A stretch of DNA of 44,011 bases, taken from the IMG/VR virus record IMGVR_UViG_3300012936_000037, positions 1 to 44,011 of that record. One strand, given 5' to 3'. How positions within the stretch are numbered: the first letter of the stretch is position 1; the number at the start of each line of letters is the position of its first letter. Source of the DNA: a virus. Below the pieces are notes generated by a model, which was not told the DNA's origin, did not search any database, and saw only the letters and a program-made list of their open reading frames with translations. This document shows, piece after piece, positions 7,009 to 24,656 of this stretch. A program made the position numbers and the translations under genes.

Positions 7009-7547
7009 TTGAAACACTTAAAAGTAAAATTCAAATTGATGACTCTGGTGTTCGCAAAACATTTAAAGGAGAAAGATATATTGATAACCCTACCACTTGG
7101 TTAACACATTATCAATCATTATGTGAAATAAATCCTCATCTTGTAAAAGTACAAAGTATTAACGAACAAGGTACAGAGATTTTAATGGAAGATATCGGAA
7201 ATCATATTCACATAGAAGATTTACTTAAAAAACCAGAATATGATAACATAGTAAATAAAGATGTAATATGCGAAATATTATACGCAATTAGTTACAGTTG
7301 GGCTCAGAGTTTTGCATACAGTAAGCAAGTTCCTGAGGATGGATACTTTATGAATAATGACGTTACTTTACATAATATGGTTTTAACAGATAATAAAGAA
7401 ATAAAACAACTAGATCCTGATAGCTATGAATGGTATCCTACTATACCGTTTGAGTGCTGGGCATTTGACTTTGCGGAAAAGTATTATATGACTCAAATTA
7501 ATTTGATGAGTAAGATACAGAAGCTTAACTATGTACAACTACCATGA
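7008..7547 (+). CDS. APH/choline-kinase-like small kinase without a canonical start codon
   Basis: The frame is open from 6996 and codes convincingly well upstream of the first ATG (7185). The upstream part has a kinase N-lobe look: GVRKTFKGERYID (a beta strand with the ATP lysine), a helix, then a strand leading to MEDIGN. The C-lobe has a catalytic-loop-like NDVTLHNMVL and LDPDSYEW, matching the HxDxxxxN and IDxD motifs of the aminoglycoside phosphotransferase fold. No ATG, GTG or TTG exists in frame between 6996 and 7185. ATT at 7008, overlapping the previous TAA, is the most likely start, giving ~179 residues, but a frameshift from the upstream PP-loop gene or a local sequence error is possible. 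It overlaps the next gene by 17 bases. Phosphorylation of a sugar or metabolite is inferred. Confidence 0.5.
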   Translation: METLKSKIQIDDSGVRKTFKGERYIDNPTTWLTHYQSLCEINPHLVKVQSINEQGTEILMEDIGNHIHIEDLLKKPEYDNIVNKDVICEILYAISYSWAQSFAYSKQVPEDGYFMNNDVTLHNMVLTDNKEIKQLDPDSYEWYPTIPFECWAFDFAEKYYMTQINLMSKIQKLNYVQLP

Positions 7548-8613
7548 CATCAAACAAGTTCATTTGGAAATTACACAAAAATGTCAAGCGGCATGTCCAA
7601 TGTGTGATAGAAATGAAGAAGGTGGTGCAGATAATCGGCATATAACAAATGCAGAACTAAGTTTAGAAGACTGTCAACGTATCTTTACAGTTGACTTTAT
7701 TAAGCAATTAAGTACAATGTATATGTGTGGTAACTTAGGTGATCCTATTGTTGCTAAAGATACATTAGATATATTCCGCTATTTTAGATCGTGTAATGAT
7801 AAAATGTGGCTGAGTATGAACACTAACGCAGGAGCAAAAGATGAAGCGTGGTGGAAAGAACTCGCAAGAGTTCTGGGACGTATGGGTACCGTTATTTTTA
7901 GTGTGGATGGTCTCCGTGATACTAATCATTTATACAGACAAAATGTGGTATGGGATAATGTAGAACGTAACATGCGAGCATTTATTTCCGCTGGAGGTAG
8001 AGCTCGTTGGGACTTTTTAATATTTGCACATAACGAACATCAAGTTGAGGAAGCTAAAGAGTTTTCAAAAGAATTAGGTTTTGAAAAATTTCAAGCAAAA
8101 AAGACAGGAAGATTTATTACTGGCAAAGGTGAAAAGAAAGACACACACCAAGCTAAAAATCGTAAAGGCATAGAAACTCAACTAATAGAAAAACCAAAAC
8201 AATCAAGTAATCAAAATTTAGCACTACTAAAACAAAAAGAGATTGAAAAAACATATGGTTCAATGCGTGAATACTATGACAGTTGTAATATTAAATGTAA
8301 AGTAGCAGAAGAAAAAAATATTTTTATTACAGCAGAAGGTCTATTAATGCCTTGTTGTTGGACTGCTGGACGTATGTATAAATGGTGGCATGCTGATCCT
8401 CGTGTAGAACAAATTTGGGAACATATTGATTCTGCAGGTGGTAAAAAAGGTATTAGTGCAAAAGAACTAGGATTAGAAAAAGTATTCTCTAGTGGAATAC
8501 TTGAGAGTATTCAAACAAGTTGGGATAAAAAATCAATTGCTAAAGGCAAACTAGGTGTTTGCGCTCAGAAATGTAGTACAGAGTTTGATCCATTTGGAGC
8601 GCAATTCCAATGA
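7531..8613 (+). CDS. radical SAM protein with C-terminal SPASM-like cysteines (cluster subfamily A)
   Basis: 360 residues. The radical-SAM cluster motif is C18-x3-C22-x2-C25 (CQAACPMC) directly after an LEIT strand. Subfamily hallmarks are CGNLGDP, FSVDGLRDTNHLYR and FAHNEHQVEEA. The C-terminal third has further cysteines (CNIKC, LLMPCCW, GVCAQKC), expected to bind one or more auxiliary Fe-S clusters as in SPASM/twitch enzymes. A Lys-rich stretch (about residues 188-215) is inserted before them. Four similar proteins occur at 8610, 13142, 19142 and 22639. Substrate unknown; SPASM enzymes often act on peptides, but the phage subfamily is uncharacterised. Confidence 0.8.
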   Translation: MYNYHDIKQVHLEITQKCQAACPMCDRNEEGGADNRHITNAELSLEDCQRIFTVDFIKQLSTMYMCGNLGDPIVAKDTLDIFRYFRSCNDKMWLSMNTNAGAKDEAWWKELARVLGRMGTVIFSVDGLRDTNHLYRQNVVWDNVERNMRAFISAGGRARWDFLIFAHNEHQVEEAKEFSKELGFEKFQAKKTGRFITGKGEKKDTHQAKNRKGIETQLIEKPKQSSNQNLALLKQKEIEKTYGSMREYYDSCNIKCKVAEEKNIFITAEGLLMPCCWTAGRMYKWWHADPRVEQIWEHIDSAGGKKGISAKELGLEKVFSSGILESIQTSWDKKSIAKGKLGVCAQKCSTEFDPFGAQFQ

Positions 8614-9611
8614 TCGAAAGAGTTGAACTAGAAATAAGTAGTGATTGTAATGCACGTTGTCCTGGATGTGCAAGAACACAAAGTATAGATTTAGTAAAGC
8701 CTACTAATCTTACACTAAAACAAATACAAACATGGTTCCCCAATCCATCAGGAATAAAATTTAAGTTCTGCGGTGTACTAGGAGATCCTATTGTAAATCC
8801 TGAATGTATGGAAATTACAAAGTATTTGGTTGACAATGGTGCTAAGATTCAATATAGTACAAACGGAGGACGCAATAGTGTTGACTGGTGGAGAGAACTA
8901 GGAACGCTAGGCATTGACGTACATTTCTGTGTTGACGGCACAGAAACTAATCATATATATCGTGTAAACACAAACTATAAAATTATTAAGCGTAACATGC
9001 AAGCCTACAGTGAAGCTGGTGGTAAAGCCACATGGATATACATTGTGTTTGATCATAATGAACACGAACTAGAACAAGCAAAACAACTTGCAGAACAAAT
9101 GGGATTTGATTTTGCTACTAGAACAGGAATGCGTAATAGCTTCCATAACTGGGTAGCGAAAATTGGAAAGAAAAATAACAAAGTTGAAAAAGTAATTCGA
9201 ACAACAGGTGCAAAACAACACAGTAAAATAGAAGTTGTTAAAAAGCTAGATAAGTTTATACAAGATGAAAACAAAAGTCAAGAGCAAATACAAAAAATTG
9301 TAAGCAGTATAAATTGCAAATACTATCACGGATCAGAAATATTCATAGGTGCAGACAGTACACTATGGCCCTGTTGTTTTTTATACGACAGCGAGTTTAA
9401 CAACAGAGATGGTATTAGAGAAAAATATAGTGCATACCCCGACAATTGGAATGATCTAAACACATATACAATAGAGCAAATACTAAGCACAGATTATTAT
9501 CAAAAGTCATTAAGAGATAGTTGGGATCCTAATCATAATTTACATATCTCACGTTGTATCAGAACTTGTGCTGAAAATCGTTCATATCAAAATGAAATTA
9601 AATACTCTTAA
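8610..9611 (+). CDS. radical SAM protein, subfamily A
   Basis: 333 residues, starting on an ATGA overlap with the previous radical-SAM gene. Motif C13-x3-C17-x2-C20 (CNARCPGC) follows a VELEIS strand. It shares with its neighbour the blocks CGVLGDP, FCVDGTETNHIYRVN and FDHNEHELEQA, then INCKY, LWPCC and RCIRTC for an auxiliary Fe-S cluster. The two adjacent copies are clearly paralogues but differ in the region that would shape the substrate pocket. The 3' end overlaps the convergent minus-strand radical-SAM gene by 14 bases. Confidence 0.8.
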   Translation: MIERVELEISSDCNARCPGCARTQSIDLVKPTNLTLKQIQTWFPNPSGIKFKFCGVLGDPIVNPECMEITKYLVDNGAKIQYSTNGGRNSVDWWRELGTLGIDVHFCVDGTETNHIYRVNTNYKIIKRNMQAYSEAGGKATWIYIVFDHNEHELEQAKQLAEQMGFDFATRTGMRNSFHNWVAKIGKKNNKVEKVIRTTGAKQHSKIEVVKKLDKFIQDENKSQEQIQKIVSSINCKYYHGSEIFIGADSTLWPCCFLYDSEFNNRDGIREKYSAYPDNWNDLNTYTIEQILSTDYYQKSLRDSWDPNHNLHISRCIRTCAENRSYQNEIKYS

Positions 9612-10878
9612 TAAAATCTACTACTTGTGGATTTAAAATATTTTCGTAGCTTTGGTTACGTATTTTATCAAATGTTGTAGTATCCATTAACAGTCTTTGT
9701 CTACGTTGATTAAGATATTCTGGATCATGTTCAGCTTCTAAGCACCATCTAAGATAGTCTCGCAATCTTGTTATATGTGTAACTGTATGTTTATTAGATT
9801 CCTCTAATGCAACTTCTATATTTTTATGTGCTATATCTAACAGTTCTTTACTAGCCCATTTTACATCTAAACAACTATCAGCAGGATGTGGATCTACTAT
9901 GCAGTTAAAATGTATAGGATGAACAGTATCCATATTATGGTGATGTATCCAATCAATTAAGTTTCTTATATTCAATATATTATATATTGTAAGCACACTA
10001 CAAAACATTAGATTCAATCTACCTTCTTCCATTTTATCGCATAATCGTTCTATGTTTTGTTCTAGCTTGCGCCAATTAAATGGATAGCGTATATATTCAT
10101 AAGTTTTATGTGTACCGTCTATACTCACAGTAATTGTATTTTCTTTGAATTTTTTAATTGCATTTATAAATTTATCATTGAACTTTGTACCATTTGTAGT
10201 TATATTAAGTAATACATCCTGAGGACGTTCAATATTGTCTACTATCTTCCAAAATGTTTTACTAGTAGTTGGTTCTCCTCCTGTAAACTTTAGTTCTTCA
10301 AGATGAGTATTGCAAAGTTCAACCAATTGTTTTTGGTTAGTGTCGTCTGGAGAATTAAAACTCATAACACCATTGGGATCTTTATCTTCTCTTTTACCAA
10401 CAGCAGGTAATACATATTCTGGCATAGTTAAATTAGCCTTCTTTATAAGTGTAACATCTTTCCTTAGGCTGTTGCTACAAGCGGGTGTACACATTCTACA
10501 TCTTAGATTACAATTTTCATCTAACATAGTATCAAACTTTTTAAGTTTAGGTTTACGAATAGCCTCTTCGAGTTTGAGTATTTCTACAGTTCTCGGACTT
10601 GATCCAGTCTTACTTTCTAATCTCCAACAATAATCACAAGCCGCATTTTTAACACCGTTTAACAAATCTCTTCTAAGTTTACTAAATTGCTCACTGTGAA
10701 ATATATCTAATAGACTTGAACCGTTGTCTATTAAATCTTTTACATACATAGGATCTGCATCGTCTGCTCTGCCGTTTTTCATATTACAACAAGGAGTTAT
10801 TCTGTCAGCAAGCCCTTTTCGCCACCTTTTAACTGCTAAAGAGTCAAACGGATAGGAGCAGTAAGTTTCATGGATCAT
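9598..10878 (-). CDS. twitch-type radical SAM protein (only minus-strand gene of the left cluster)
   Basis: 426 residues. The radical-SAM motif C123-x3-C127-x2-C130 (CNLRCRMC) lies unusually far from the N-terminus. Ahead of it are C7, C30-C31 and C81-x2-C84, arranged like an N-terminally placed twitch/SPASM cluster site. After the motif come FTGGEPT (SAM-binding GGEP) and TVSIDGT. The same layout is in the divergent gene at 10920, so the two form a divergent paralogue pair. A TATAAATA octamer ends exactly 5 bases before the ATG and no Shine-Dalgarno sequence is visible. Substrate unknown. Confidence 0.78.
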   Translation of the reverse strand: MIHETYCSYPFDSLAVKRWRKGLADRITPCCNMKNGRADDADPMYVKDLIDNGSSLLDIFHSEQFSKLRRDLLNGVKNAACDYCWRLESKTGSSPRTVEILKLEEAIRKPKLKKFDTMLDENCNLRCRMCTPACSNSLRKDVTLIKKANLTMPEYVLPAVGKREDKDPNGVMSFNSPDDTNQKQLVELCNTHLEELKFTGGEPTTSKTFWKIVDNIERPQDVLLNITTNGTKFNDKFINAIKKFKENTITVSIDGTHKTYEYIRYPFNWRKLEQNIERLCDKMEEGRLNLMFCSVLTIYNILNIRNLIDWIHHHNMDTVHPIHFNCIVDPHPADSCLDVKWASKELLDIAHKNIEVALEESNKHTVTHITRLRDYLRWCLEAEHDPEYLNQRRQRLLMDTTTFDKIRNQSYENILNPQVVDFIKSI

Positions 10879-10883
10879 AACAT

Positions 10884-10891
10884 TATTTATA
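10884..10891 (-). promoter_or_regulatory. T4-type late promoter-like octamer TATAAATA
   Basis: Read on the minus strand, TATAAATA is a perfect T4 late consensus. It ends 5 bases before the ATG of the radical-SAM gene at 10878, so a T4-type start site would fall at or next to the start codon and give an almost leaderless message. Chance occurrence in AT-rich DNA is possible. Confidence 0.4.
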
Positions 10892-10906
10892 ATGGTATAT
10901 AATGAA

Positions 10907-10914
10907 AATAAATA
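10907..10914 (+). promoter_or_regulatory. T4-type late promoter-like octamer AATAAATA
   Basis: AATAAATA ends 5 bases before ATG 10920 of the plus-strand radical-SAM gene. This is exactly the geometry of the minus-strand copy at 10884-10891. No ribosome-binding site precedes either ATG. The pair would form a compact divergent late promoter in the 41 bases between the two start codons. Confidence 0.4.
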
Positions 10915-10919
10915 GTAAC

Positions 10920-12320
10920 ATGAGCAATCCTCCTAGTGATACATTTTGTCTATTACCTTGGGTACACCTAAGTACAAGACCTGACGGCAGTATGCGTGTA
11001 TGCTGTACTGCAAATGCCAGTGCAGTTGGTGCTACAAATGATAAAGAACACGGCGGGCAAGTAGGAATACTTAAAACAGATGACGGTAAACCAAATAATT
11101 TAAATGTAAGTGACTTTGAAACAGCATGGAATAGTACATATATGAAAAATGTAAGAATACAAATGCTAAACGGAGAGAAACCTCCTAGCTGTTTAAAATG
11201 CTACAAAGAAGAAGCTTCAGGACATCGTAGTAAACGTATGTGGGAAACAGATTATTGGAGTAAGCGTGTAGATCTTGACAAGATAATAAGTGAAACAAAA
11301 GCTGACGGAGAAGTTCCACCTAACTTAGCATATATTGATTTACGTTTTGGAACAAAGTGTCAACTTGCATGTGTTATGTGTAGTCCACACGATAGTAGTG
11401 GGTGGATAAAAGATTATAAAAAAATATTTCCAAATGTAAAAAATGAATCTTTAAAAGAAACTATGCAGTGGCAAGATAAAGGTAGTACTAACGGAAGTAG
11501 TTATAATTGGCATAAACAAAATCCTATATTCTGGAAACAGTTTTATGAACAAATGCCTAGTATGCAACAAATTTATTTTGCAGGCGGCGAAAGTCTTATT
11601 ATTGAGGAACACTATGAAATACTTGAACATGCAATTAAAATGGGCTATGCAAAAGACTTAGAACTACGTTATAACTCAAATGGTGTAGAGTGGCGAGATG
11701 ATTTATTTGAGTTATGGAGTCATTTTAAAGTTGTGAGATTTCATTATAGTGTTGATAGCATAGGAGATATGAATAGTTATATACGTTATCCAAGTGAATG
11801 GAAGCGTACAGAAGAAGTATTTCATATACTAGATAAAGAAACTACAAACAATGTTGAAATAACAGTTGCTTGTGCCGTACAAGCACTAAATGTTTATTAT
11901 ATTCCAGATTTTATTAAATGGAAAGTACAACAAAACTTTCATAAAGTCAATATGTGGCCATTTGGTGCAGGAATGATTAATTATCATTTTGTTTATTGGC
12001 CCGGACATTTAAATGTTAAAGTTTTACCCAAATGGTTTAAAGAAGAATGTAGACGTAAATATGAGGAGTTTTATCCATGGATGGAAGAAAATTGGCAGTT
12101 GTGTATTCCATCATGGCATAAAGATAAAGTTGATTATAATACTTGGAGATACACTGATTACGGAATGAAAAGACTAGACGGTATGTTAACCTTTATGGAA
12201 AGCGAAGACTGGAGTAGGCGTTTGCCGGAAATGAAAGAGTTCCTAGCATTGTGTGATAAACAACGTGGCATGGCTTTTGCAGATACGTTTCCCGAAATGA
12301 AAGATATTTTTAATGAATGA
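10920..12320 (+). CDS. twitch-type radical SAM protein
   Basis: 466 residues from ATG 10920; an in-frame ATG at 10902 would overlap the promoter-like octamer, so the downstream start is preferred. Cysteines C10, C28-C29 and C91-x2-C94 sit ahead of the radical-SAM motif C147-x3-C151-x2-C154 (CQLACVMC). This is the same N-terminal auxiliary-cluster layout as in the divergent gene at 9598. FAGGESL replaces the usual GGEP. VDSIGDMNSYIRYPSEW matches the VDG-type block of its partner (SIDGTHKTYEYIRYPFNW). The C-terminal ~150 residues are rich in Trp and aromatic residues. It overlaps the next gene by 8 bases. Substrate unknown. Confidence 0.78.
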   Translation: MSNPPSDTFCLLPWVHLSTRPDGSMRVCCTANASAVGATNDKEHGGQVGILKTDDGKPNNLNVSDFETAWNSTYMKNVRIQMLNGEKPPSCLKCYKEEASGHRSKRMWETDYWSKRVDLDKIISETKADGEVPPNLAYIDLRFGTKCQLACVMCSPHDSSGWIKDYKKIFPNVKNESLKETMQWQDKGSTNGSSYNWHKQNPIFWKQFYEQMPSMQQIYFAGGESLIIEEHYEILEHAIKMGYAKDLELRYNSNGVEWRDDLFELWSHFKVVRFHYSVDSIGDMNSYIRYPSEWKRTEEVFHILDKETTNNVEITVACAVQALNVYYIPDFIKWKVQQNFHKVNMWPFGAGMINYHFVYWPGHLNVKVLPKWFKEECRRKYEEFYPWMEENWQLCIPSWHKDKVDYNTWRYTDYGMKRLDGMLTFMESEDWSRRLPEMKEFLALCDKQRGMAFADTFPEMKDIFNE

Positions 12321-13155
12321 TAGTTTAAACAATCTATCTTATACAAATTTTAATGTAAACAAAGATGTATTACATGTAATAGATAACGAGTATTTTCCAT
12401 TTGATCCTACATTAAAAAATATTGGTGTAAACTTGTCGGGCGGTGCTGACAGTGCATGTGGCACAGCATTATTATGTAAGTTAATCGACGAACTTGGATG
12501 CGATACAAAAATTACAGTAATTACACATAATAGATGTTGGAATACTAGACCATGGCAACAACCAGTAAGTTTAGATGTGTACAATAAACTTGTTACTATG
12601 TTTCCAAACACTATTATTAGAAGAATTGAAAACTTTATTCCTCCAGAACTTGAACATGGTGCTATAGGTAATATTGATCAATTAGGTGCTCCAGGAGATT
12701 CAATTTGTGTACAAAGTTTTAATAATTATGCAATGTATAATTATAATTTAGATACTACATATGGTTTTACAACTAGTAATCCACAAGATGAAAATTTCAG
12801 TCATGACCGTGAATTAGATAATCGTCATTGGACAAAGGAAAAACTTTTATCTTTAACTTACTGTCCTCAAACTGATTGTGCAGAGCATTTAACACCTTTT
12901 CGTTTATTAGATAAAAGATTTGTTATAAAACAATACTACAATAATAATTGGACTGAACTACTCGATATAACCAGGAGTTGCGAACAAGAACATCAACCAA
13001 TAGAGAAAAGTTGGAGGTATGGTTTTCCTCCTTTAGAAAATTATATACACGGAACTACACCATTGGTTACTTGTTGTGACTTAGTAGATGACTTGTCAGA
13101 AGGTTGTTTCTGGTGTGCTGAACGTGATTGGGCTATTAAAAATGTGGACAAGTGA
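12313..13155 (+). CDS. PP-loop ATPase with cysteine tail, paralogue of 6334-7008
   Basis: 280 residues. The PP-loop SGGADS is at 42-47 after the strand NIGVNL, marking an ATP-pyrophosphatase that adenylates its substrate. The tail holds a CC pair and GCFWCAERDW, echoing CEDCWFCRERQW of the shorter paralogue at 6334. An extra ~30 residues sit between the first tail Cys and the rest, so the metal site may differ. It overlaps the radical-SAM genes on both sides (8 and 14 bases). Known relatives include QueC and tRNA-thiolation enzymes; the actual substrate is unknown. Confidence 0.62.
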   Translation: MNDSLNNLSYTNFNVNKDVLHVIDNEYFPFDPTLKNIGVNLSGGADSACGTALLCKLIDELGCDTKITVITHNRCWNTRPWQQPVSLDVYNKLVTMFPNTIIRRIENFIPPELEHGAIGNIDQLGAPGDSICVQSFNNYAMYNYNLDTTYGFTTSNPQDENFSHDRELDNRHWTKEKLLSLTYCPQTDCAEHLTPFRLLDKRFVIKQYYNNNWTELLDITRSCEQEHQPIEKSWRYGFPPLENYIHGTTPLVTCCDLVDDLSEGCFWCAERDWAIKNVDK

Positions 13156-14083
13156 TACATTAGAATGGATTGATATTGAACTTACAAGTTTTTGTAACAT
13201 ACGTTGCAAAGGGTGTTTTCGTGTGATATCTGATCATGCTGATAATATACTAAACAAAACTTATTTAGATATAGAAATAATTAAAGAAAAGTTTCAAAAA
13301 GAAATGTTTCCTAATATTAAAATTATTAATTTTTGTGGAAGTGTAGACGAACCTTGCAGTCATCCTCAGTTTTTTGATATTATAAAACATTTTTCTACGT
13401 GGGATTGTCATATTAATATTGCTACAAATGGAAGTTTGCGAACTACTAAATGGTGGACAGAACTAGCAGGTATACTTCCTAATAGTCATAAAGTTGTATG
13501 GGGAATAGATGGTAGCGATGAGTTATCAGAAGTATACAGAGAAGGTTCCAACTTTAATAAAGTAGAACAAAATTATAGAGCATTCATTGCGGCAGGCGGT
13601 AAAGCAAACTGGCAGTTTATTGTTTTTGAACACAATGAACATCAACTTGAACAAGCAAAACAAAAAGCCGTAGACGAAGGGTTTGCAAAATTTCAAACTA
13701 TAATAAGTCACAGAAAAGATACTGGTGGTGTTAAACATAAAAAAGTTGAAAAAGAAGAAAATCCAAGCATTAGTTGTAAGTACGCTAATCAAAAAAGAAT
13801 ATTTATAAATCATATGGGTAATGTTATTCCTTGTTGTCACTTAAATGCAAAGATGCTAGAGTATCCTGTTAGCGGAAATAAACATGATAGGTTTGAGGAT
13901 ATTCTAATAGAGCAAGACTATATAAATGATATTAATCTTAAAAACGTTAGTATAGATCAAGCTATCAATGGAAAAGTATGGACTGATATTAAAGACAGTT
14001 GGAATAGTGAATTTAGAATACCTAGATGTGAACAAGTTTGTAAACAAAACAAAAGAGATGTGCTTATCAAGGAAGAATTATAA
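13142..14083 (+). CDS. radical SAM protein, subfamily A
   Basis: 313 residues from ATG 13142; a start at 13088 would add 18 residues overlapping the PP-loop gene without family support. Motif C18-x3-C22-x2-C25 (CNIRCKGC) follows WIDIELTS. The family blocks CGSVDEP, WGIDGSDELSEVYR, GKANWQF and FEHNEHQLEQA are present. The C-terminal auxiliary-cluster cysteines are in ISCKY, VIPCCH and RCEQVC. It ends in a TAATG junction with the next radical-SAM gene. The CGNxGDP block is changed to CGSVDEP here, so the substrate may differ. Confidence 0.78.
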   Translation: MWTSDTLEWIDIELTSFCNIRCKGCFRVISDHADNILNKTYLDIEIIKEKFQKEMFPNIKIINFCGSVDEPCSHPQFFDIIKHFSTWDCHINIATNGSLRTTKWWTELAGILPNSHKVVWGIDGSDELSEVYREGSNFNKVEQNYRAFIAAGGKANWQFIVFEHNEHQLEQAKQKAVDEGFAKFQTIISHRKDTGGVKHKKVEKEENPSISCKYANQKRIFINHMGNVIPCCHLNAKMLEYPVSGNKHDRFEDILIEQDYINDINLKNVSIDQAINGKVWTDIKDSWNSEFRIPRCEQVCKQNKRDVLIKEEL

Positions 14084-15363
14084 TGGGACAGTTTGATACA
14101 CTTAATTTGTTTGATAATAAAGATGGGCCACTAGTAGTAACTTGGGATACTGGCAGAAGGTGTAATTACGATTGCACTTATTGTCCTTCGCATAGACATG
14201 ATAACTTTAGCCCACATGCTAGTTTACAAGAACTACAAGGCGTTGGTAAATTCTTATTTGACTATAGTGAATTAATTTGCAAATATAAAACTAAAAGTCA
14301 ATTGAACGTGAGTTTTACAGGCGGAGAACCTACAGTTAATCCTAAGTTTATTGAGTTTGGTCAATGGTTACGTGAATTGTATAATAAAGAATATAAAGAT
14401 AAATTTGAGTTACAACTAGGATTAACTACTAATGGTGCCTTTGGTGAAAAAATGGCACGTAGTCTATTAGAAGTATATGATAACTGTACAATTAGCTATC
14501 ACGTAGAAGCACATAAAAATTTAAAAAAACAAGTTATTAGAAACATGTATTTTCTTAAAGAAAATAAGTATCCTATGAAAATTAATGTAATGTTTCATGC
14601 ACAGTATTTTGACGAGTGTATTGATCTATGTAGACAACTCTCAGAAGATGATATAGCATTTGTTCCTCGTATGATTGGTGATGAGTCGGGTGATACAAAC
14701 GCACATATTTACACAGAACCACAACTACAGTGGATGAAAGATTATTGGAAAAATACTGATAAAGAAATAAAAAATTTAACAGTAGAAGACTATAGACATA
14801 AAGAAAACATTTATGCAAAGAAAGATGACGTAAAAAATAAAACAGCAGAAGTACAAAAAACTGTAGATAAGTTTGAACCTACTAAAAAAGAAGTTGCTGT
14901 TAAAGTTAACGAAAAGAATCAAGTTATAGATAAAGATCCAAAAAATAAATCTGAAACTGTAGGTAGACCTTGCTGTGGAGGAAGAGTAATGGAAACTAGT
15001 ACTAATAATGGATGTTGGACAAAAACAAAGTTCTTAGATTATCAAAAATTTCAAAATTGGAGTTGTAGTGTAAATTGGTTTTTCTTACATATAGAACAAC
15101 AAACTGATCAAATATTTCATCATCAAACTTGCCAAGCTCGCTTTGATGGAACTAGAGGAGCGATTGGTAGTATTACTGAAAGTGATAAAATTTTAGATTG
15201 GTTAAGAGATAAATTAGAAACTAAAACAATGCCAATAATACAATGTCCGTTAGGTCCTAATAAGTTATGTGGCTGTGGATTGTGTACGCCAAAAAGTATT
15301 GAACTTGATCAACTTAAAAATATATTGCCAAGACATTTAAATGATATGGAGATATTTGTATGA
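14083..15363 (+). CDS. radical SAM protein with Cys-rich C-terminus and Lys-rich insert (subfamily B)
   Basis: 426 residues, TAATG start. Motif C27-x3-C31-x2-C34 (CNYDCTYC) follows TWDTGRR, and FTGGEPT is the SAM-binding GGEP. Subfamily B also includes 16050 and 23652 (GRxCNYxCxYC followed by a His/Asp-rich turn such as SHRHDNFS). About residues 246-295 are a Lys/Val/Glu-rich, probably disordered insert. Many cysteines follow (RPCCGG, GCW, WSCS, TCQARFDG), ending in QCPLGPNKLCGCGLC, which could bind one or two extra Fe-S clusters. It is coupled by ATGA to the SDR-like gene. Confidence 0.75.
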   Translation: MGQFDTLNLFDNKDGPLVVTWDTGRRCNYDCTYCPSHRHDNFSPHASLQELQGVGKFLFDYSELICKYKTKSQLNVSFTGGEPTVNPKFIEFGQWLRELYNKEYKDKFELQLGLTTNGAFGEKMARSLLEVYDNCTISYHVEAHKNLKKQVIRNMYFLKENKYPMKINVMFHAQYFDECIDLCRQLSEDDIAFVPRMIGDESGDTNAHIYTEPQLQWMKDYWKNTDKEIKNLTVEDYRHKENIYAKKDDVKNKTAEVQKTVDKFEPTKKEVAVKVNEKNQVIDKDPKNKSETVGRPCCGGRVMETSTNNGCWTKTKFLDYQKFQNWSCSVNWFFLHIEQQTDQIFHHQTCQARFDGTRGAIGSITESDKILDWLRDKLETKTMPIIQCPLGPNKLCGCGLCTPKSIELDQLKNILPRHLNDMEIFV

Positions 15364-15905: not shown

Positions 15906-15907
15906 CT

Positions 15908-16066
15908 ATGGCTGATTATCATGTCTGGAGTCTCAAAAAATTATTTGAATCAGAACTAGAAGAAGTTCAAAAAATGTACATGGATGCACTTGATCCTGAA
16001 GATAAAACAATGTACGAACAAGTTATTAAGTATTTGGAGAAACGATTAAGTGGCGAAATCCAATGA
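15908..16066 (+). CDS. small hypothetical protein (52 aa)
   Basis: An ATG at 15908 opens a 52-codon frame that fills the gap between the SDR-like gene and the next radical-SAM gene. The product is acidic and helical (ESELEEVQKMYMDALDPEDK), with a basic end (LEKRLSG), and has no known motif. It overlaps the GTG start at 16050 by 17 bases, and its GGAG at 16036-16039 serves as the ribosome site of that gene. An upstream GGAG lies about 12 bases before its own start (AAGGAGCAAAATAACT ATG). Confidence 0.5.
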   Translation: MADYHVWSLKKLFESELEEVQKMYMDALDPEDKTMYEQVIKYLEKRLSGEIQ

Positions 16067-17171: not shown

Positions 17172-18673
17172 TGGATTTAGCATTAGTAGCCATACCTAGA
17201 CTTAATATAGATGCTCCTCCAATGGGTATTGCATCTATAAAAGGAAGTGTGCTGAAGGCAGGTTATACTGCAAAATGCTTTGATCTGAATATTGATTTAT
17301 ATCATGCTGTAACTTTTGATACATGGTTAGAACTAGATAGTTATTTTCAGACTGATCTTAGGTACACAGGTACAAGTTTAAATGGTGCTGGTAGTAGAGA
17401 AATTAACTTTATCAATATAGTACAAAAAAGAAAAAAAGAATTACATTGTTACAAAGAATATAATGACTTTCTTGAGAAGGCTATTCACGACATATTAGCG
17501 CATGAACCTGAATGGATTGGTGTAAGTGTATTCAGTGTTAACAGTGTTATTAGTATAGTAAACTTCTTATCTATATTAAAGGAAATAAAACCAGACCAAA
17601 AAGTTATGGCAGGAGGCATGGGACTGAGTAGCTTCGGGCTTGGCGGTAACAGTAACTTTGGTGAATTTTTAATTGAACAGGGTTTAATTACAACATACAT
17701 TAGTGGCGAGGGCGAATTAGCAATAATCGATCTTCTTAAAGAAGGTAAAGAGTCTAAGTTCACTCCGCAAATAAACGATCTTAATAGTTTAGCATTTCCA
17801 AACTATGACGATTTTGATTTAAGTTTATATCCTGGAAAAGAAAATATGGTTTATATTACAGGTAGTAGAGGTTGTGTAAGAGCTTGTACATTCTGTGATA
17901 TTAATAGTTTATGGAAAAAGTTTAGATATCGCTCAGGTGATAACATTGCTGAAGAAATATTAGAAGGACATAAAAAATATAATACTACAGACTTTTACTT
18001 TACTGATAGTTTAATCAATGGTAATATGAAAGAGTTTGTTAAATTATTAGATACTATAATCAGTTATAAAGAGCAAGGATTATTGCCAGATGATTTAATG
18101 TTTGGAGGTCAATTTATTGCTAGACCTAAAGCTAGATTTCCAGAAGAGTATTATAAAAAGATGCAAGATGCTGGTGTTTACAACATTAGTGTAGGAATGG
18201 AATCAGGCAGTGATCGTGTATTAGCAGATATGCGTAAAGGTACTACTAGAGAAGATCATGATTTTATGATGGAAATGTTACAGAAATATGGTATAAGAAT
18301 TAATCTTCTTATGCTTATAGGATATCCAACTGAAACAGAAGATGACTTCCAAGACACATTAGATATGATCAAAGACTATAAACGTTACAGTGATAGCGGA
18401 ATAATTTGGGGAATTGTACTAGGTAAAACAATGGTAGTTCTTCCGAATACTCCTATTGCTGATAATGCTGACCATTGGAGTATTGCTTATGATGATACAG
18501 GAAATTGGTTTAGTAAAGACAATGAAACATTAACATATCACGAACGAGTTAAAAGGCGTATGAGGGCAGGACGTCTTTGCGAAGATTTAGGTTATGTTAT
18601 TAAAAGTCAAGTTGTTACTGTGAACAGTCTCCATGAAATAGTTACACAGGGCGGCTATGACTCGATTTCCTAA
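17171..18673 (+). CDS. B12-binding-domain type radical SAM protein
   Basis: 500 residues. Residues 1-200 look like a cobalamin-binding Rossmann domain: PPMGIASIKGSVLKAGY, then WIGVSVFS, VMAGGMG and ISGEGE, the order seen in BchE-type and related enzymes. No DxHxxG lower-axial His is present, which is common in this class. The radical-SAM motif C235-x3-C239-x2-C242 (CVRACTFC) follows ITGSRG, and GMESGSDRVLADMRKGTT matches the class B radical-SAM core. Relatives methylate unreactive carbons or rearrange rings. This is the only member of the cluster of this class. Confidence 0.78.
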   Translation: MDLALVAIPRLNIDAPPMGIASIKGSVLKAGYTAKCFDLNIDLYHAVTFDTWLELDSYFQTDLRYTGTSLNGAGSREINFINIVQKRKKELHCYKEYNDFLEKAIHDILAHEPEWIGVSVFSVNSVISIVNFLSILKEIKPDQKVMAGGMGLSSFGLGGNSNFGEFLIEQGLITTYISGEGELAIIDLLKEGKESKFTPQINDLNSLAFPNYDDFDLSLYPGKENMVYITGSRGCVRACTFCDINSLWKKFRYRSGDNIAEEILEGHKKYNTTDFYFTDSLINGNMKEFVKLLDTIISYKEQGLLPDDLMFGGQFIARPKARFPEEYYKKMQDAGVYNISVGMESGSDRVLADMRKGTTREDHDFMMEMLQKYGIRINLLMLIGYPTETEDDFQDTLDMIKDYKRYSDSGIIWGIVLGKTMVVLPNTPIADNADHWSIAYDDTGNWFSKDNETLTYHERVKRRMRAGRLCEDLGYVIKSQVVTVNSLHEIVTQGGYDSIS

Positions 18674-19142
18674 ACCTTTAACAATAGAACAATTACAAAA
18701 AACACTGCCCAAAAAACTTTCTCATATAAAGGAAGATGCTAAAGTTAAGTTCATTAAACAAGTAATGTTTCTATATCGAATGTCTGATGATTTTGGTAGT
18801 ATAGATTTTAATAAAAGTACGTATGATGGTGTTGATGTTAACATTGTTTATGATCCAATGGAACCTAAAATTCAACTAAAACTTTTAATGCAACAAGTAA
18901 TGGACAAGTGGTATTTTAGTAATTTAGAAAAGAATGAAAACGTATATTTTTATAGATTTATAAATTTGTTTAGGGCTGAAATGTCACAGGAAGAATGGAA
19001 AGAAGTTGATTTTCATTTAAGAACAACTAATGAAATGGTACTTAGTGAAAATTACAAACAGTACACTGACTATAGAAGAAAACTAGATGAAATTGAAATC
19101 ATAATACAAGATGAGAATTTTAGTGCAAAGGAAAATTATTAA
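18657..19142 (+). CDS. hypothetical protein
   Basis: 161 residues, charged and mostly helical, with no Cys-rich or nucleotide-binding motif. It starts inside the end of the previous gene (17-base overlap) and is joined by TAATG to the next radical-SAM gene, so it is translated with them. The sequence LFRAEMSQEEWKEVDFHLRTTN is unrecognised. It may be a partner of one of the flanking radical-SAM proteins, but nothing shows this. Confidence 0.5.
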   Translation: MTRFPKPLTIEQLQKTLPKKLSHIKEDAKVKFIKQVMFLYRMSDDFGSIDFNKSTYDGVDVNIVYDPMEPKIQLKLLMQQVMDKWYFSNLEKNENVYFYRFINLFRAEMSQEEWKEVDFHLRTTNEMVLSENYKQYTDYRRKLDEIEIIIQDENFSAKENY

Positions 19143-20188
19143 TGTACGAATATGATTCTTTATACGGAATACATATAGAATTTACAAGCCGTTGCAATCT
19201 TGTATGCCCTCAATGTGCAAGGACTAAAAATGGAAGTGTAAATCCTGATTTGCCTTTAGAAAATATGCCATTGGAAACAGTTCAAAAAATATTTGATGAA
19301 ATGGGTGAAAAAACACAGTATGTTCATTTATGTGGAAACTACGGAGACTTTGTTGCTTATCCACATGCACTAGAAGCAATAGATATTATACAAAAAAGCG
19401 GTGTTGACTTTATTAAAATATACACAAATGGTAGTGCTAGACCTAGTAAATTTTGGGAAGAACTTGCAAACAAATTAGCTGATAGTAAAGGACAAATAGT
19501 CTTTAGTATTGACGGACTTGAAGATACAAATCATTTATATAGAGTTAATAGTAATTTTCAAAAAATTATACATAATGCAAAAGCATTTATCGATGCTGGC
19601 GGTACCGCTGTATGGGAATGGCTGCCCTTCGAACACAATGATCATCAAGTTGAAGATGCTGTAAAAATGGCAAAACGTTTAGGGTTTGCTGAGTTTATAC
19701 TTAAAAAGAATCCTAGATTTAGTCCTATTAATAATGGTGAACATTATCTACTAAAGCCTAGTAAAAAATATATACATGAAGGTGTTAAACTACAAGAAAA
19801 ACAAATCATGGGAGAAACGCAAAGACTAACACCAACTTTGTTTCCTATATCTTGTAAGTACGATGCCCGCAAAATGATTTTTATAGATTTCCAAGGAAAC
19901 ATTTTGCCTTGTTGCTGGCACGGAAATAGATATAATCCAGACAGTAAAAGCGGAACAAATGAATTCCATAAAATTATGGAAGGTTACGATTCTAATATTT
20001 TTAACGTAAACTATTATTCTGTCAAAGAGATATTAAACAACGATTGGTATAGAAAAGACATGGACTATACTATTAAGATATTGAAAACTTGTAGGAAGCA
20101 TTGCCCAATGGGTAACAAAATGTCAAACAAAGATAATAGAATACAGCATGTGTTTAAAGAAGTCTTAGATATGGAGCCTTGGGAATAA
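19142..20188 (+). CDS. radical SAM protein, subfamily A
   Basis: 348 residues. Motif C18-x3-C22-x2-C25 (CNLVCPQC) follows GIHIEFTSR. Family blocks: CGNYGDF, FSIDGLEDTNHLYRVNS, GTAVWEW and FEHNDHQVEDA. Auxiliary-cluster cysteines are ISCKY, ILPCCW and CRKHC near the end, the same three-part layout as 7531 and 22639. A QFGx-like or GGEP loop is not obvious, as in other subfamily A members, where CGNxGDP seems to take its place. TAATG on both sides. Confidence 0.8.
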   Translation: MYEYDSLYGIHIEFTSRCNLVCPQCARTKNGSVNPDLPLENMPLETVQKIFDEMGEKTQYVHLCGNYGDFVAYPHALEAIDIIQKSGVDFIKIYTNGSARPSKFWEELANKLADSKGQIVFSIDGLEDTNHLYRVNSNFQKIIHNAKAFIDAGGTAVWEWLPFEHNDHQVEDAVKMAKRLGFAEFILKKNPRFSPINNGEHYLLKPSKKYIHEGVKLQEKQIMGETQRLTPTLFPISCKYDARKMIFIDFQGNILPCCWHGNRYNPDSKSGTNEFHKIMEGYDSNIFNVNYYSVKEILNNDWYRKDMDYTIKILKTCRKHCPMGNKMSNKDNRIQHVFKEVLDMEPWE

Positions 20189-20778
20189 TGCTTAAAATAC
20201 CACTAACTACTGATGCTGTTAAGTATATAAACCAACAACGAGTAATGACTTCTAAATTAAAGCATAGCGATGTAGAATGGTATTCTTACTTATTGTTTAA
20301 TTTTATAGCACAACAAATAACTCCTTACCTAACACCGGGGAAAAGGTGTTTAGATATTGGAGCAGGATTAGGGCTTATAAATATATTTCTCAGGGATATA
20401 TACGATGAAATATACTTGTATGATAAAACAGTTTCTTTAGAACAATTAGAAAATACATATTATGGATTTCATGATGAATATTGTTACTACAGTAATTTAG
20501 ACATAGCAAAAGATTTAAATCCTGATTTTAATGTAACTGATGTTTTAGATTTCCCTGACAATCACTTTGATATGATACAAAGTCATATGAGTTGGTGTTG
20601 GCACTATCCTAAAGAAACTTACTACGATAAAGTACTACAAATTTTAAAACCCAATGGTTTGCTAATAGTAGATATTTTTACTACAATGAATTATACATTT
20701 AGTGAATTTGAAGAAATAGATAGATTGGAGAACAGAGAAGATGAAAGTTTCAAACTTATTCTCCGACGCAAGGATTGA
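20188..20778 (+). CDS. class I SAM-dependent methyltransferase
   Basis: 196 residues from ATG 20188, which forms a TAATG junction; a TTG at 20179 would add three residues. Motif I is LDIGAGLG (55-62). A second strand ends YLYDKT, and a third region DVLDFPDNHFDMIQSHMSW followed by LKPNGLLIVDIF fits motifs IV and V of small-molecule methyltransferases. The C-terminal end is basic (ILRRKD). Substrate unknown. It overlaps the oxygenase gene by 38 bases. Confidence 0.72.
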   Translation: MLKIPLTTDAVKYINQQRVMTSKLKHSDVEWYSYLLFNFIAQQITPYLTPGKRCLDIGAGLGLINIFLRDIYDEIYLYDKTVSLEQLENTYYGFHDEYCYYSNLDIAKDLNPDFNVTDVLDFPDNHFDMIQSHMSWCWHYPKETYYDKVLQILKPNGLLIVDIFTTMNYTFSEFEEIDRLENREDESFKLILRRKD

Positions 20779-21385
20779 AAAAGAACCGTTCCCTTACATA
20801 GTATGGGACAATTTATTGGACAATGATACGTTTGAAGAACTTAGTTCTACTATGCCAGAACATGATCCTTTTAATTATGCGTCTAAGATTATTAAAAATG
20901 AATCCGGACTATGGAAAGAATATGCAGAGTATTTTACTAGTGTGGAATTTCATAAACAAATATTAGATGTATTTGGTATAGAGATTAGTGATAGTGTTGG
21001 ATTACGTAAGCGAGATAATACAAAATTTGTAACTGAAAGTTTTATTGCTATAAGAAAGCCCAACATGAATGAATGGTGTTTGCAACCGCATATTGATAGT
21101 AAATGGGCAATTACTAGTATGGTACATTACTTTAAAAAACCGGACGATGATGATGTGTCAGGTGAATTTGTTATACTAAAACCAAACAAAGAAATAACAT
21201 ACACTGAATCTGAGAAAAGAATTAGTTATGCAGATCCTGCTTGTTTTGATATTGTAGAAACAATACCATACGGCAGTAATAATGCTGTATGTACATTAGC
21301 TGGACCTAATGCTTGGCACGGAATATTACCTCGTACAACTAACATAAGGCGTACTGTAAATATTTCATATGAGGAATATAACTAA
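20741..21385 (+). CDS. 2OG-Fe(II) oxygenase-like protein
   Basis: 214 residues. ATG 20741 lies within the end of the methyltransferase gene, with GGAG about 11 bases upstream. Metal ligands H117-x-D119 (LQPHIDSKW) and H193 (NAWHGI) with R203/R204 form a standard 2-oxoglutarate dioxygenase set. The stretch MVHYF after the first pair and VNISY at the end are the core strands. A similar N-terminal EPFPYIVWDNLL opening is seen in many phage and cyanobacterial oxygenases that begin with a helix-strand cap. Product and substrate unknown. Confidence 0.7.
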   Translation: MKVSNLFSDARIEKEPFPYIVWDNLLDNDTFEELSSTMPEHDPFNYASKIIKNESGLWKEYAEYFTSVEFHKQILDVFGIEISDSVGLRKRDNTKFVTESFIAIRKPNMNEWCLQPHIDSKWAITSMVHYFKKPDDDDVSGEFVILKPNKEITYTESEKRISYADPACFDIVETIPYGSNNAVCTLAGPNAWHGILPRTTNIRRTVNISYEEYN

Positions 21386-21924
21386 TGGAATTACCAATCG
21401 AAAAGTTAGATTATAAGGTGGATATTGATGAACTACAAGAAGTTACTATTGATTTTCTTCATAGGTACCATTGGGATAAAAGTAACCAATTATGTTTACT
21501 TAACACACAAGACTGGGAGCCAGGAGATCCATATCAGGGAATAGGACATGTTAAAGAGCCTGGATATCCAGCATTTGGTTACAAAGAAGGAGATTTTAAT
21601 GTATTCCATCCCGATTATGAAGATACAATATTAGGTAAGTTATACAGAGAGTTTCCATTACCAGTATGTAGAATGCGAGTATTACGTGTACCTACAAAAC
21701 GTTGTTATACTATGCATGTTGATGGTGACACACATAGATATCATTTTGCAGTTATTAGTAACAAAGATGCATTTTTTGTTTTTGGCGATCAAGGTAGAAT
21801 ACAAAGTATTCCTTGTGATGGACATGCTTACAAAGTCTGTGTTAAAGAACCTCATACTTTTGTAAATACCAATTCTGGTTTTGATAGGATACATATAGTT
21901 CTCGATGCGGCACCCAAAGAATAA
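21385..21924 (+). CDS. aspartyl/asparaginyl beta-hydroxylase-like 2OG oxygenase
   Basis: 179 residues, TAATG start. H111-x-D113 (YTMHVDGD), followed by RYHFAVISN, H157 (EPHTFVN) and R168 (DRIHIVLD), matches the Asp/Asn beta-hydroxylase fold. The HRYHF and DRIHIV pairs are typical of that family. It is a separate type from the adjacent oxygenase at 20741. It overlaps the sulfotransferase-like gene by 20 bases. Confidence 0.72.
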   Translation: MELPIEKLDYKVDIDELQEVTIDFLHRYHWDKSNQLCLLNTQDWEPGDPYQGIGHVKEPGYPAFGYKEGDFNVFHPDYEDTILGKLYREFPLPVCRMRVLRVPTKRCYTMHVDGDTHRYHFAVISNKDAFFVFGDQGRIQSIPCDGHAYKVCVKEPHTFVNTNSGFDRIHIVLDAAPKE

Positions 21925-22651
21925 TTTAGCAATACTTGGATTAAGTAGAAGCGGTACAACTGTTGTTGCACAGTCGCTTGTACATGAGCTTTCTACTGAG
22001 TACGATTTTGTTCATCCGGTTTATCAAGGAGAAATTAGTAATGTATATCAGGATTACTTTTTTATAGGAGAAAATAAGAAAACAAAAGAATACAAAGAAG
22101 GTAGTTATGTTAAGTCATTTGAAATAGTAAATGGCTATTTACAAGGTTGCAGGATATATAAGAATATTCAACTTAACGGTAAAAAAGAAATGTCTAATCG
22201 TATGGACTTAATAAATTATATGATTGGTAGTAAGTTTAAATCTATTGTAAAAGTACACCCGTTTGCTATTTGGAAAAACTATCAACAGCCGTATGTATTA
22301 GAAACTTTATCTAAATTAAATTATGTATATGTAAAGCGTTCAAATAAACTAGAACATTTTTTAAGTTTTGTAATAGCACGTGAAAGTGGAATATATCATA
22401 CAAATGATCCAAATGAAAAATTTCCTGAGAATATTATAGTTACAGATGAACACAAGGATTTGTTTAAGAAATATCTGATTGCAGAAGAATGGTTTTTGGG
22501 ATTTGCTAATATAGTAAATACTGTGGTATATGAAGAGTTAGGCGAAATACAACAAGATGGATTCGTTAAAAAACTACCTTATATAAAGCCAAAAATAGAT
22601 TATATATTAAACAAAGATGAAGTATATGGTTTTATAGAATGTTTAACGTAA
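21905..22651 (+). CDS. sulfotransferase-like P-loop protein
   Basis: 248 residues. P-loop LGLSRSGTTVVAQSL (11-25) is the classic PAPS 5'-phosphosulfate loop of sulfotransferases (SRSGTT), stronger than in 1621 and 3278. A later strand and KRSNKLEHFLSFVIARESG could be the 3'-phosphate-binding part (RxxxxxxxS). The protein ends with a basic region containing PYIKPKIDYILN, much like the end of 1621-2310 (YKNEKLHYILNK). It overlaps the radical-SAM gene by 13 bases. Acceptor unknown. Confidence 0.65.
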   Translation: MRHPKNNLAILGLSRSGTTVVAQSLVHELSTEYDFVHPVYQGEISNVYQDYFFIGENKKTKEYKEGSYVKSFEIVNGYLQGCRIYKNIQLNGKKEMSNRMDLINYMIGSKFKSIVKVHPFAIWKNYQQPYVLETLSKLNYVYVKRSNKLEHFLSFVIARESGIYHTNDPNEKFPENIIVTDEHKDLFKKYLIAEEWFLGFANIVNTVVYEELGEIQQDGFVKKLPYIKPKIDYILNKDEVYGFIECLT

Positions 22652-23652
22652 GAGAAGTTCATTATGATATAACTAACATGTGCAACGCCGCATGTCCGCA
22701 ATGTGTACGTACTAATCCGGTCACAGGCAAAATGCATGACTATATATTAAAGCATGAACTTAGCTATGAAGATTTTGTAAAAATATCTCCCGCTTGGTTT
22801 ATACAGCAACTAGACTATCTTTACTTTTGTGGAAACTTTGGAGATCCTTTAATTGCAAAAGATTTGCTTGCGATACTTGATTACATATGGACTGTTAAGC
22901 CAACATTAAGTGTAAAAGTTCATAGTAATTGCGGTATACGAAGTAAAGATTGGTGGACAAAATTTGCACAATTAACTAGCGATAAAAAATTTACACTTAT
23001 TGCTAGTGTAGATGGTGCTAGTCAAGCTACACAAGAACTTTATAGAGTTAATACAAACTATGATAGGATTATAGAAAATCTTAAAACTTTTATAAGTTAC
23101 GGCGGAAAAGTAGAGTGGCGCTTTATAGTTTTTAAACACAACGAACACGAAGTTGAATTAGCCGAAAAAATAAGTAAAGAGATAGGCTGTATTAATTTCC
23201 GTAGTTATAGTAGTAATAGACAATTCCCCAATGGACGTTTTAAATATAACTTCAATGGAGAAACAAGATATTTAGAAAAACCTTCATATGAAGTTGAAAG
23301 CAAATTCAGTGATAGAAAAACTATTGAGTTTGAACAGTTAGAAGAAACAGTTGCAAAAATTGATTGCATTGCTAATAAAACAAGAAGTATTTTTATTGAC
23401 TTTGAGGGTAACGTCCTTCCTTGCTGTCATTATGGAATAAGACTGTATACAAATAGAAGAAACACTCGAGATGTAAACAATGATGAAGTTGTACAAGAAA
23501 CTATAAACAACTTTGGTAATGATAAATTTAATGCTATAGATTTAGGTATAGAGACTGCATTAAGTAACTGTGGCAGATTCTTAGAAATTTTAGATCCATA
23601 TTGGAAAAAAGGACAGCCATTAGTTTGTAAAATGATCTGTGGGAAGTCATAA
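22639..23652 (+). CDS. radical SAM protein, subfamily A
   Basis: 337 residues. Motif C15-x3-C19-x2-C22 (CNAACPQC) follows VHYDITNM. Subfamily blocks: CGNFGDP, ASVDGASQATQELYRVNTNYDR, GKVEWRF and FKHNEHEVELA. Auxiliary-cluster cysteines: IDCIAN, VLPCCH and VCKMIC at the C-terminus. It is closest to 7531 (both have LxxEDF or ED-C then QQLxYxYFCGN). TAATG link to the next radical-SAM gene. Confidence 0.8.
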   Translation: MFNVREVHYDITNMCNAACPQCVRTNPVTGKMHDYILKHELSYEDFVKISPAWFIQQLDYLYFCGNFGDPLIAKDLLAILDYIWTVKPTLSVKVHSNCGIRSKDWWTKFAQLTSDKKFTLIASVDGASQATQELYRVNTNYDRIIENLKTFISYGGKVEWRFIVFKHNEHEVELAEKISKEIGCINFRSYSSNRQFPNGRFKYNFNGETRYLEKPSYEVESKFSDRKTIEFEQLEETVAKIDCIANKTRSIFIDFEGNVLPCCHYGIRLYTNRRNTRDVNNDEVVQETINNFGNDKFNAIDLGIETALSNCGRFLEILDPYWKKGQPLVCKMICGKS

Positions 23653-24656
23653 TGTGGGTTTTATTAACAGATAAAGGTCTAAGACAAATACTATTAGCAG
23701 ACTTAAAGTTCCACACTAAAGTAAAAGGTTGGATATGTAATACAGGTAATTATGTTTATAATCTTATAATGGATGATACTTCATTTGTTAGTAATACTAT
23801 TTGTAGAGCTATTGACGATTATCCTATAATTAATATAAAAGAAACACCAAAATTTGAAACAGAGTATGCTGTTTGTCCAAAAGAAAATTGTTACTGCGGA
23901 ATGGATATTGGTATACCAAAAGGCAAAACAACAGAGGATATAATAAATCTTAAACGACAATTTAATGCTGAATCAAATATTAATGCAATACCTTGGTATG
24001 ATAATGAAACAATACTTGCATTTGGATTAAGTGATTTTATCACAAATACAATGGTTCATGTAGATTGGTTCTTAGGTAAACGATGTAACTTTGATTGTGT
24101 TTATTGTTCTCCTAGCATACACGATAATCACAGTGAATATCCTTTGCTAGAGAAGTTATTAGATTACTATGACTATTTGACAAATACAATAGTTAATAAC
24201 GAAAAAAATAAAAAAACTATTAGTTATATTTTTGGTGGAGGAGAGCCTACACTAATACCAGGTTACATAGAGTTCTTAGAACATATTACAAATGACAATC
24301 GTTTTAATAGTGAAATACGTACTCTTACTAATCTAACTGGTAGTCCTAAAAAATTGTATAGACTAAATCAGTTATGTGATATTACTTTTAGTGTGCATTT
24401 AGCATACATGACTGATAAGTTTATTGATAAGGCAGATAGATTTTTCTCATTGAGAGATGAAACATCTAAGTCTTTAACTATGAAATTTATGTATGATAAA
24501 CGCTATGCTGAACGAATAGATAAAATGTTAGAAGTACTAAACAATCATACTAACTTAAATTACAGTGTAACTCCGTTGCATGACAAATCCGACAAAAACT
24601 TATATCAATATGATGATAATGATAAGAAGTATTTTAAACTAAGAGGAAAGCTATAA
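23652..24656 (+). CDS. radical SAM protein with N-terminal Cys motif (subfamily B, permuted layout)
   Basis: 334 residues. The radical-SAM motif is C145-x3-C149-x2-C152 (CNFDCVYC), preceded by DWFLGKR as in 14083 and 16050, with FGGGEPT as the SAM-binding loop. Unlike those two, it ends soon after the radical-SAM core and instead carries C75, C80 and C82 (CPKENCYCG then IPKGKTTEDI) ahead of it. That block resembles the extreme C-terminus of 14083 (CPLGPNKLCGCG then CTPKSIEL). The N-terminal 60 residues contain a possible nucleotide-like fold start but no clear motif. Confidence 0.72.
   Translation: MWVLLTDKGLRQILLADLKFHTKVKGWICNTGNYVYNLIMDDTSFVSNTICRAIDDYPIINIKETPKFETEYAVCPKENCYCGMDIGIPKGKTTEDIINLKRQFNAESNINAIPWYDNETILAFGLSDFITNTMVHVDWFLGKRCNFDCVYCSPSIHDNHSEYPLLEKLLDYYDYLTNTIVNNEKNKKTISYIFGGGEPTLIPGYIEFLEHITNDNRFNSEIRTLTNLTGSPKKLYRLNQLCDITFSVHLAYMTDKFIDKADRFFSLRDETSKSLTMKFMYDKRYAERIDKMLEVLNNHTNLNYSVTPLHDKSDKNLYQYDDNDKKYFKLRGKL

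Follow-up and report, generated by a model that had tools for sequence, protein, structure and literature searches.

Radical-SAM genes in phages and in the window

Richness in radical S-adenosylmethionine (SAM) enzymes has been known for a phage since 2010 (PMC2853527). The virulent Campylobacter phages CP220 and CPt10 encode 11 and 12 radical-SAM proteins, respectively, and differ in a cluster of five (Timms 2010, PMC2853527), whose radical-SAM genes stand together with amidinotransferase and nucleotide-sugar-transferase-like genes (PMC2853527). Pelagimyophages carry host-recognition clusters in which tail fibres, glycosyltransferases and radical-SAM cassettes are found (PMC7029224). The subject of this study is an island of eleven radical-SAM genes in the complete IMG/VR record IMGVR_UViG_3300012936_000037, a linear fragment of 44,011 bases which is referred to in its entirety as the window (genes are named by their first coordinate).

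A preliminary description of the window had counted eleven genes with a C-x3-C-x2-C motif in about 17 kb, and a search of the record with PF04055 confirmed this with exactly 11 matches, at those genes in 7531-24656. Each of the eleven proteins has the motif, which the 48 remaining listed open reading frames (ORFs) lack. With a cut-off of 29.5 bits, eight matches are over it in the genome search and three slightly under (26-29 bits), one of these, 10902, passing as a protein; at the protein level 9 of the 11 are over the cut-off, with 13142 and 22639 just under. The island is longer than described: it starts near 4336, its left part consisting of 4336, 5075, 6112 (named s74, and overlooked before) and 6334, and 24656 forms its right part. 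The first three of these genes, a glycosyltransferase-like gene (GT), a SAM-dependent transferase-like gene (MT) and s74, make up an operon head which recurs before radical-SAM genes in other viral contigs. In this large, uncultured T4-like phage the array looks like a pathway, widespread among viruses yet undescribed, for the chemical decoration of the phage or its host; hundreds of other environmental phages in IMG/VR, which is redundant, have the same gene order.

Compared with the described systems, three proteins of the CP220 cluster match the profile of subfamily A, to which five of the window proteins belong (E 1e-24 to 1e-27), but the cluster is smaller, and the MT, s74 and GT profiles have no match in a 40.8 kb stretch of CP220. 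The pelagimyophage isolate Mosig EXVC030M has a variable island adjoining tail fibres and baseplate genes, with three genes annotated as molybdenum-cofactor genes (MoaA-like), a carbamoyltransferase, aminotransferases, Asp hydroxylases, nitroreductases and one MT-family member (E 6e-27); it differs by its few radical-SAM genes, by the fact that no s74 was found in it, and by its phage lineage. In Sinorhizobium phage Phosso (PV764938) the site is the same, with gp25, gp6 (37% identical to gp6 of G024, the nearest long relative of the window), a giant virion protein and a tail-fibre-like protein, followed by four radical-SAM genes and a cupin-like protein. The Phosso block has only these four radical-SAM genes, however, and the 45.7 kb examined showed no member of the MT, GT or s74 family. 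Within this block (L336:35272-42405), the product of a gene annotated as 'oxidoreductase' (38527-39624) is a radical-SAM protein (CNLSCKFC).

No paper in the literature searched (subscription journals not covered) describes the GT-MT-s74-radical-SAM operon, with its size and spread; it is larger than the reported phage radical-SAM clusters and conserved. The preliminary description had held that the size of the array may be unusual. Within its group it is not, since the number of radical-SAM genes per related contig runs from 12 to 23. The isolates yielded reduced versions only.

Conserved gene order, setting and age of the array

IMG/VR was searched from three genes (subfamily A, s74 and MT), the searches started from s74 and MT being added since the first loci had been selected for radical SAM; given the redundancy of the database, dereplicated counts are those to trust. 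The subfamily A search returned 80 loci, many with 5 to 14 radical-SAM genes in at most 21 kb, and GT-MT-s74-radical SAM is the dominant order in the 29 s74-bearing loci of the first set. Starting from s74, MT is directly upstream in 78 of 80 loci, and a radical-SAM gene lies at most three genes downstream in 62 of the 74 loci with room for one. Starting from MT, GT is directly upstream in 68 of 80, and a radical-SAM gene is at most three genes away in 63 of 78. When MT was dereplicated at 90% identity, 73 of the 81 clusters flanked by enough sequence to either side had a radical-SAM gene among the next four genes. All 65 MT genes of the first viral set are at most 1.5 kb from a radical-SAM gene, compared with 34% of 650 background ORFs. 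Conserved order had been proposed as a test for the dedicated pathway suggested in the preliminary description, and its recurrence in many other contigs supports that suggestion; the loss of catalytic cysteines in most members, named as a possible refutation, is not observed, as they are kept in 480/486 and 433/436 full-length relatives (two sets).

Two near relatives, G001 and G002, have 18 and 16 radical-SAM genes, respectively, and share with the window the block 16050, 17171, 18657, 19142, 21385, 21905, 22639 and 23652, in the same order and with 73-90% identity. G024 (124.7 kb, with a T4-like gp23 capsid gene, E 5e-100, and 12 radical-SAM genes) is nearly collinear with the window from the TctC gene (560) through 16050, with most genes at 62-94% identity and the inversion of 9598 included, and 17171-24656 is absent from it at the corresponding place. 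The G024 island goes on with another radical-SAM group, and after it come GT-like genes, tail-fibre-like proteins, a protein of 4008 amino acids (aa) and gp6- and gp25-type baseplate genes; gp25 was identified by PF04965, and gp6 is 37-42% identical to gp6 of Phosso, PA5oct and relatives. The RNase H of the window also matches PA5oct and RaK2, and tail-fibre-like proteins are located upstream of the arrays in G001 and L043 too. Since the variable island of G024 adjoins tail-fibre and baseplate genes, it occupies the site of the host-recognition clusters of T4-like marine phages (PMC7029224); in the truncated window itself this neighbourhood is not seen. VrlC and gp14, the markers between which such clusters lie, were not identified in G024.

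In the first contig set, seven of the window radical-SAM genes have orthologs at 62-90% identity, and G024, G001 and G002 combined hold an ortholog of at least 77% for all eleven, whereas the closest paralogs inside the window share about 30%. The five window members are scattered over a tree of 236 A proteins, each grouped with other phages and with a common ancestor spanning 222 of the 236 leaves; support is strong near the tips. Compared with their orthologs, ten of the radical-SAM genes (all but 16050, which was left out) have a ratio of nonsynonymous to synonymous substitution rates (dN/dS) of 0.05-0.14. The five subfamily A enzymes are paralogs of long standing, each with orthologs in other phages, and purifying selection acts on them.

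The densest array seen is that of L018 (IMGVR_UViG_2823573081_000015), with 14 radical-SAM genes nearly back to back in 17 kb and 18 in a contig of 47 kb. Fusions join radical-SAM domains to one another and to other array families, for instance family f4 with two radical-SAM domains (L061:7464-11702), and a radical-SAM domain with family f6, which by motif resembles pyridoxal-phosphate enzymes (L061:11689-14151). A bacterial origin was considered for the array contigs filed in metagenome-assembled genomes (L112, L115 and L121), and was rejected for L112 (NZGL01000008.1 of MED685, filed as gammaproteobacterial), as homologs of the window phage genes 27018 and 26636 adjoin the array and the assembly contains three T4-like gp23 genes; L112 is probably a misbinned phage contig.

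Genes of the island and its flanks

All genes of the island are on the plus strand except 9598. Its first gene encodes a GT-A-like glycosyltransferase (4336..5091, family f5) with a DxD motif and a very weak match to Pfam GT2 in 2 of 29 family members (E 0.07). Neither this family nor a GT8-like one matches the PDB by sequence, and a GT8-like pair has no glycosyltransferase match in Pfam. GT family proteins of 920-1522 aa, with up to six degenerate repeats of one domain, are located upstream of arrays at L039:1789-6357, L041:5222-8038 and L073:3008-5770.

The MT protein that follows (5075..6115) was assigned by its family hidden Markov model and is a paralog of 24656 (24656..25621), through whose model its fold is read. 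The AlphaFold2 model of 24656, with a predicted local distance difference test score (pLDDT) of 90, has the class I SAM-dependent transferase fold, with a Rossmann domain preceded by an N-terminal helical domain, and matches SAM-transferase folds at E ~1e-6. The fold search returned the general SAM-transferase fold only, with 3-amino-3-carboxypropyl (acp) transferases (NAS, CntL, TYW2) among methyltransferases, which is not decisive, and by sequence the family has no match in the PDB. The third gene, s74 (6112..6333, 73 aa), has 549 relatives in IMG/VR; the alignment is conserved along its whole length, and the AlphaFold2 model (pLDDT 89) is all helical, with no strands. There is no match to s74 in 50,697 phage records, nor to its model in BFVD under E 0.001. 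In the PDB the model matched only death-domain-like helical bundles, weakly (Z 4.8 at best) and not in a meaningful way.

Two PP-loop ATPases are present: 6334..7008 (PF06508, E 8e-6; alignment A5), with QueC-like C-terminal cysteines, and a second copy at 12313..13155; SGG-DS and four cysteines are invariant in the family alignment. The first is followed by a 120-aa protein (7185..7547), 62-75% conserved in L172 and G024. In G024, a homolog of a putative 71-aa membrane protein of the window (2313-2528, +) is found between s74 and the PP-loop gene.

Subfamily A comprises 7531..8613, the signature member, with relatives of at least 300 bits in 46 contigs (window counted), 8610..9611 (86% identical to its G024 ortholog), 13142..14083 (PF04055 26.7 bits), 19142..20188 and 22639..23652 (PF04055 25.7 bits, below cut-off; orthologs at 83%). 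Its members share about 30% identity, and the blocks described for them earlier hold, C18/C22/C25, CG at 64-65, HN-H, PCC and a C-terminal CxxxC being invariant in the alignment of the five. ORF 13088-14083 contains 13142 as an internal start. The two genes previously called twitch-type, 9598..10878 (-) and 10902..12320, have their twitch/SPASM part at the N-terminus and belong to NF033640 (N_Twi_rSAM, twitch domain-containing radical SAM; cut-off 170 bits) with 227 and 419 bits, a sequence family with no assigned function; their orthologs are at 88% in G024, where 9598 is inverted too, and at 76-87%, respectively. The minus strand of 9598 had been missed. The SPASM model PF13186 (cut-off 21.5 bits) is exceeded by 10902, 13142 (23 bits) and 19142, with 9598 and 22639 slightly under, and has no match in 7531 and 8610 although their cysteines align. 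Subfamily B (14083..15363; 16050..17171, PF04055 53.7 bits, orthologs at 74-83%; 23652..24656, 36.7 bits) is a loose group, with about 29-39% identity across short stretches. As for the B12 type proposed for 17171..18673 (PF04055 75.9 bits), the B12-binding model PF02310 scores 20.3 bits against a cut-off of 32.1 and the related B12-radical-SAM models of NCBIfam are all likewise below theirs, so the label stands for a resemblance of architecture only.

Between these genes lie a partial Rossmann protein that is SDR-like (15360..15905; NF038213 E 4e-7, far below cut-off), whose family has a radical-SAM gene nearby in 21 of 22 cases, and a 161-aa protein (18657..19142) found at the same position in G001 and G002 with 78-79% identity. 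They are followed by a class I SAM methyltransferase (20179..20778; PF08241, PF13489), a putative oxygenase of the 2-oxoglutarate type (20741..21385), assigned by reading of motifs and with no Pfam match, a putative Asp/Asn hydroxylase-like protein (21385..21924), also read from motifs and 85% conserved in G001 and G002, and a sulfotransferase-like P-loop protein (21905..22651; weak PF13469 match, 73-74% in G001 and G002).

Outside the island, a twelfth radical-SAM gene, QueE-like, is found at 38643-39605 (-). Two of its cysteines (CNFRC) and the third (GCDTY) are apparently split by a long insertion, because of which neither the CX3CX2C motif nor PF04055 caught it; relatives in KVP40 and other phages carry a QueE-like annotation. 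At the right end, a GAPDH gene (42931-43896, -; PF00044/PF02800), with relatives in few phage records, adjoins a gene that reads as a class I fructose-bisphosphate aldolase (42122-42934, -) and has no Pfam match, making a pair of glycolytic genes in a phage. The left end (1-1624) contains a TctC-like protein with no match in the phage collection, alongside a TctA that is broken off where the contig ends and is full-length in G024 (PF01970, E 6e-96).

Candidate product and competing explanations

The reading that we favour, and to which we give an even chance, is that the island makes a sugar-derived decoration of the tail fibre or the host envelope. Under this reading the phage, a T4-like member of the PA5oct/Phosso/RaK2 group, would hold in its host-recognition region a biosynthetic operon for a complex sugar-derived group, which would be attached to tail fibres or the host envelope. 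The GT-A-like enzymes would transfer the sugar, and a UDP-sugar dehydrogenase, an epimerase and a carbamoyltransferase, whose genes are found in sister islands, would supply and carbamoylate it. The radical-SAM enzymes would remodel unactivated carbons stepwise (oxidation, epimerisation, dehydration, C-methylation), the PP-loop enzymes would activate carboxylates, and the methyltransferase, hydroxylase-like and sulfotransferase-like proteins would finish the product. Such radical-SAM steps are performed on aminoglycosides by BtrN, NeoN, AprD4 and GenK, and NodU/TobZ-type carbamoyltransferases have sugars as substrates. Sugar chemistry is favoured because carbamoyltransferase, UDP-sugar dehydrogenase and GT-like genes are linked to the arrays: the carbamoyltransferase occurs in 33 contigs, in 29 of them at most 1.5 kb from a GT gene, and a relative of UDP-sugar dehydrogenase in 28. 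Other recurrent neighbours are SDR, PP-loop, Asp-hydroxylase-like, nitroreductase-like and SGNH-like genes. A relative of methylthioadenosine/S-adenosylhomocysteine nucleosidase is encoded within the G024 array (L330:17319-17867) and another at the L112 array (L112:20141-20698); 5'-deoxyadenosine is a known inhibitor of radical-SAM enzymes, and its disposal is a role that fits these genes.

Several points weigh against a sugar product. The data establish gene content, conserved order, purifying selection and, in a near relative, the place beside tail fibres, whereas a sugar as substrate is something that we infer, as we do the attachment site and the benefit; the glycosyltransferase label is weak, given the GT2 result for family f5 and that of the GT8-like pair in Pfam; the carbamoyltransferase and UDP-sugar dehydrogenase are found in relatives and not in the window; and the most constant partners, MT and s74, are not typical genes of a sugar pathway.

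The main rival, which we think unlikely, is the modification of protein by the radical-SAM enzymes, with s74 as substrate or product carrier, or with tail-fibre side chains as targets. Peptides are common targets of SPASM/twitch radical-SAM proteins, the hydroxylase-like genes and the B12-type radical SAM resemble polytheonamide-type clusters, and s74, directly after MT in nearly all loci, is usually just upstream of the signature radical SAM. However, s74 is conserved throughout and predicted to be globular and helical, lacking a variable core, and it is not seen in several of the contigs that carry the signature radical SAM. No precursor of a ribosomally synthesized and post-translationally modified peptide (RiPP), with conserved leader and variable core, was found among the gaps and small ORFs of the window island. 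A RiPP recognition element (a PqqD-like winged helix) was checked for on s74 only, the predicted model of which is all helical, with no strands.

It is decidedly improbable that the island gathers unrelated auxiliary metabolic genes as exchangeable cassettes in a hypervariable site, with no single pathway. The segment 17171-24656 is missing from its place in G024 and present in G001 and G002, which in turn have no close orthologs of 8610, 9598, 13142 and 14083, and the radical-SAM cluster of CP220 is not the same as that of CPt10 (PMC2853527). Against this stand the fixed operon head and the collinear order across dozens of dereplicated contigs, as well as the tight linkage, the overlapping genes and the fusions of radical-SAM domains with other array families.

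That the pathway leads to a hypermodified base in DNA or RNA, as the QueC-like cysteines of the PP-loop proteins and the QueE-like gene at 38643-39605 could suggest, is very unlikely: 6334 scores 19.2 bits with the QueC model TIGR00364 (cut-off 150.3 bits) and 12313 has no match to it, in other phages QueE-like genes are frequent and stand apart, and the G024 island adjoins tail genes. That the array arose in this phage through recent local duplications which then diverged, in line with the preliminary description and with the closeness of several genes per subfamily, is already contradicted and hardly credible, with paralogs at about 30% against 62-90% for orthologs elsewhere and the A proteins scattered over the tree.

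A more speculative and rather remote reading has s74 as a dedicated carrier, on which an amino acid or sugar acid would be loaded and rebuilt in assembly-line fashion by at least ten radical-SAM enzymes, the product going to tail fibres or the host surface. If true, this would be a virus-only class of carrier-bound biosynthesis. The arrays are a large reservoir of radical-SAM enzymes whose chemistry is untapped, and the pathway is made testable by Phosso, a cultured phage in which that site holds a reduced version. Viral auxiliary genes are mostly single enzymes; an ordered operon of 10 to 23 oxygen-sensitive, SAM-consuming enzymes implies a costly product and a strong benefit in infection, and the tail-fibre adjacency in the readable relatives ties the array to host recognition or superinfection control.

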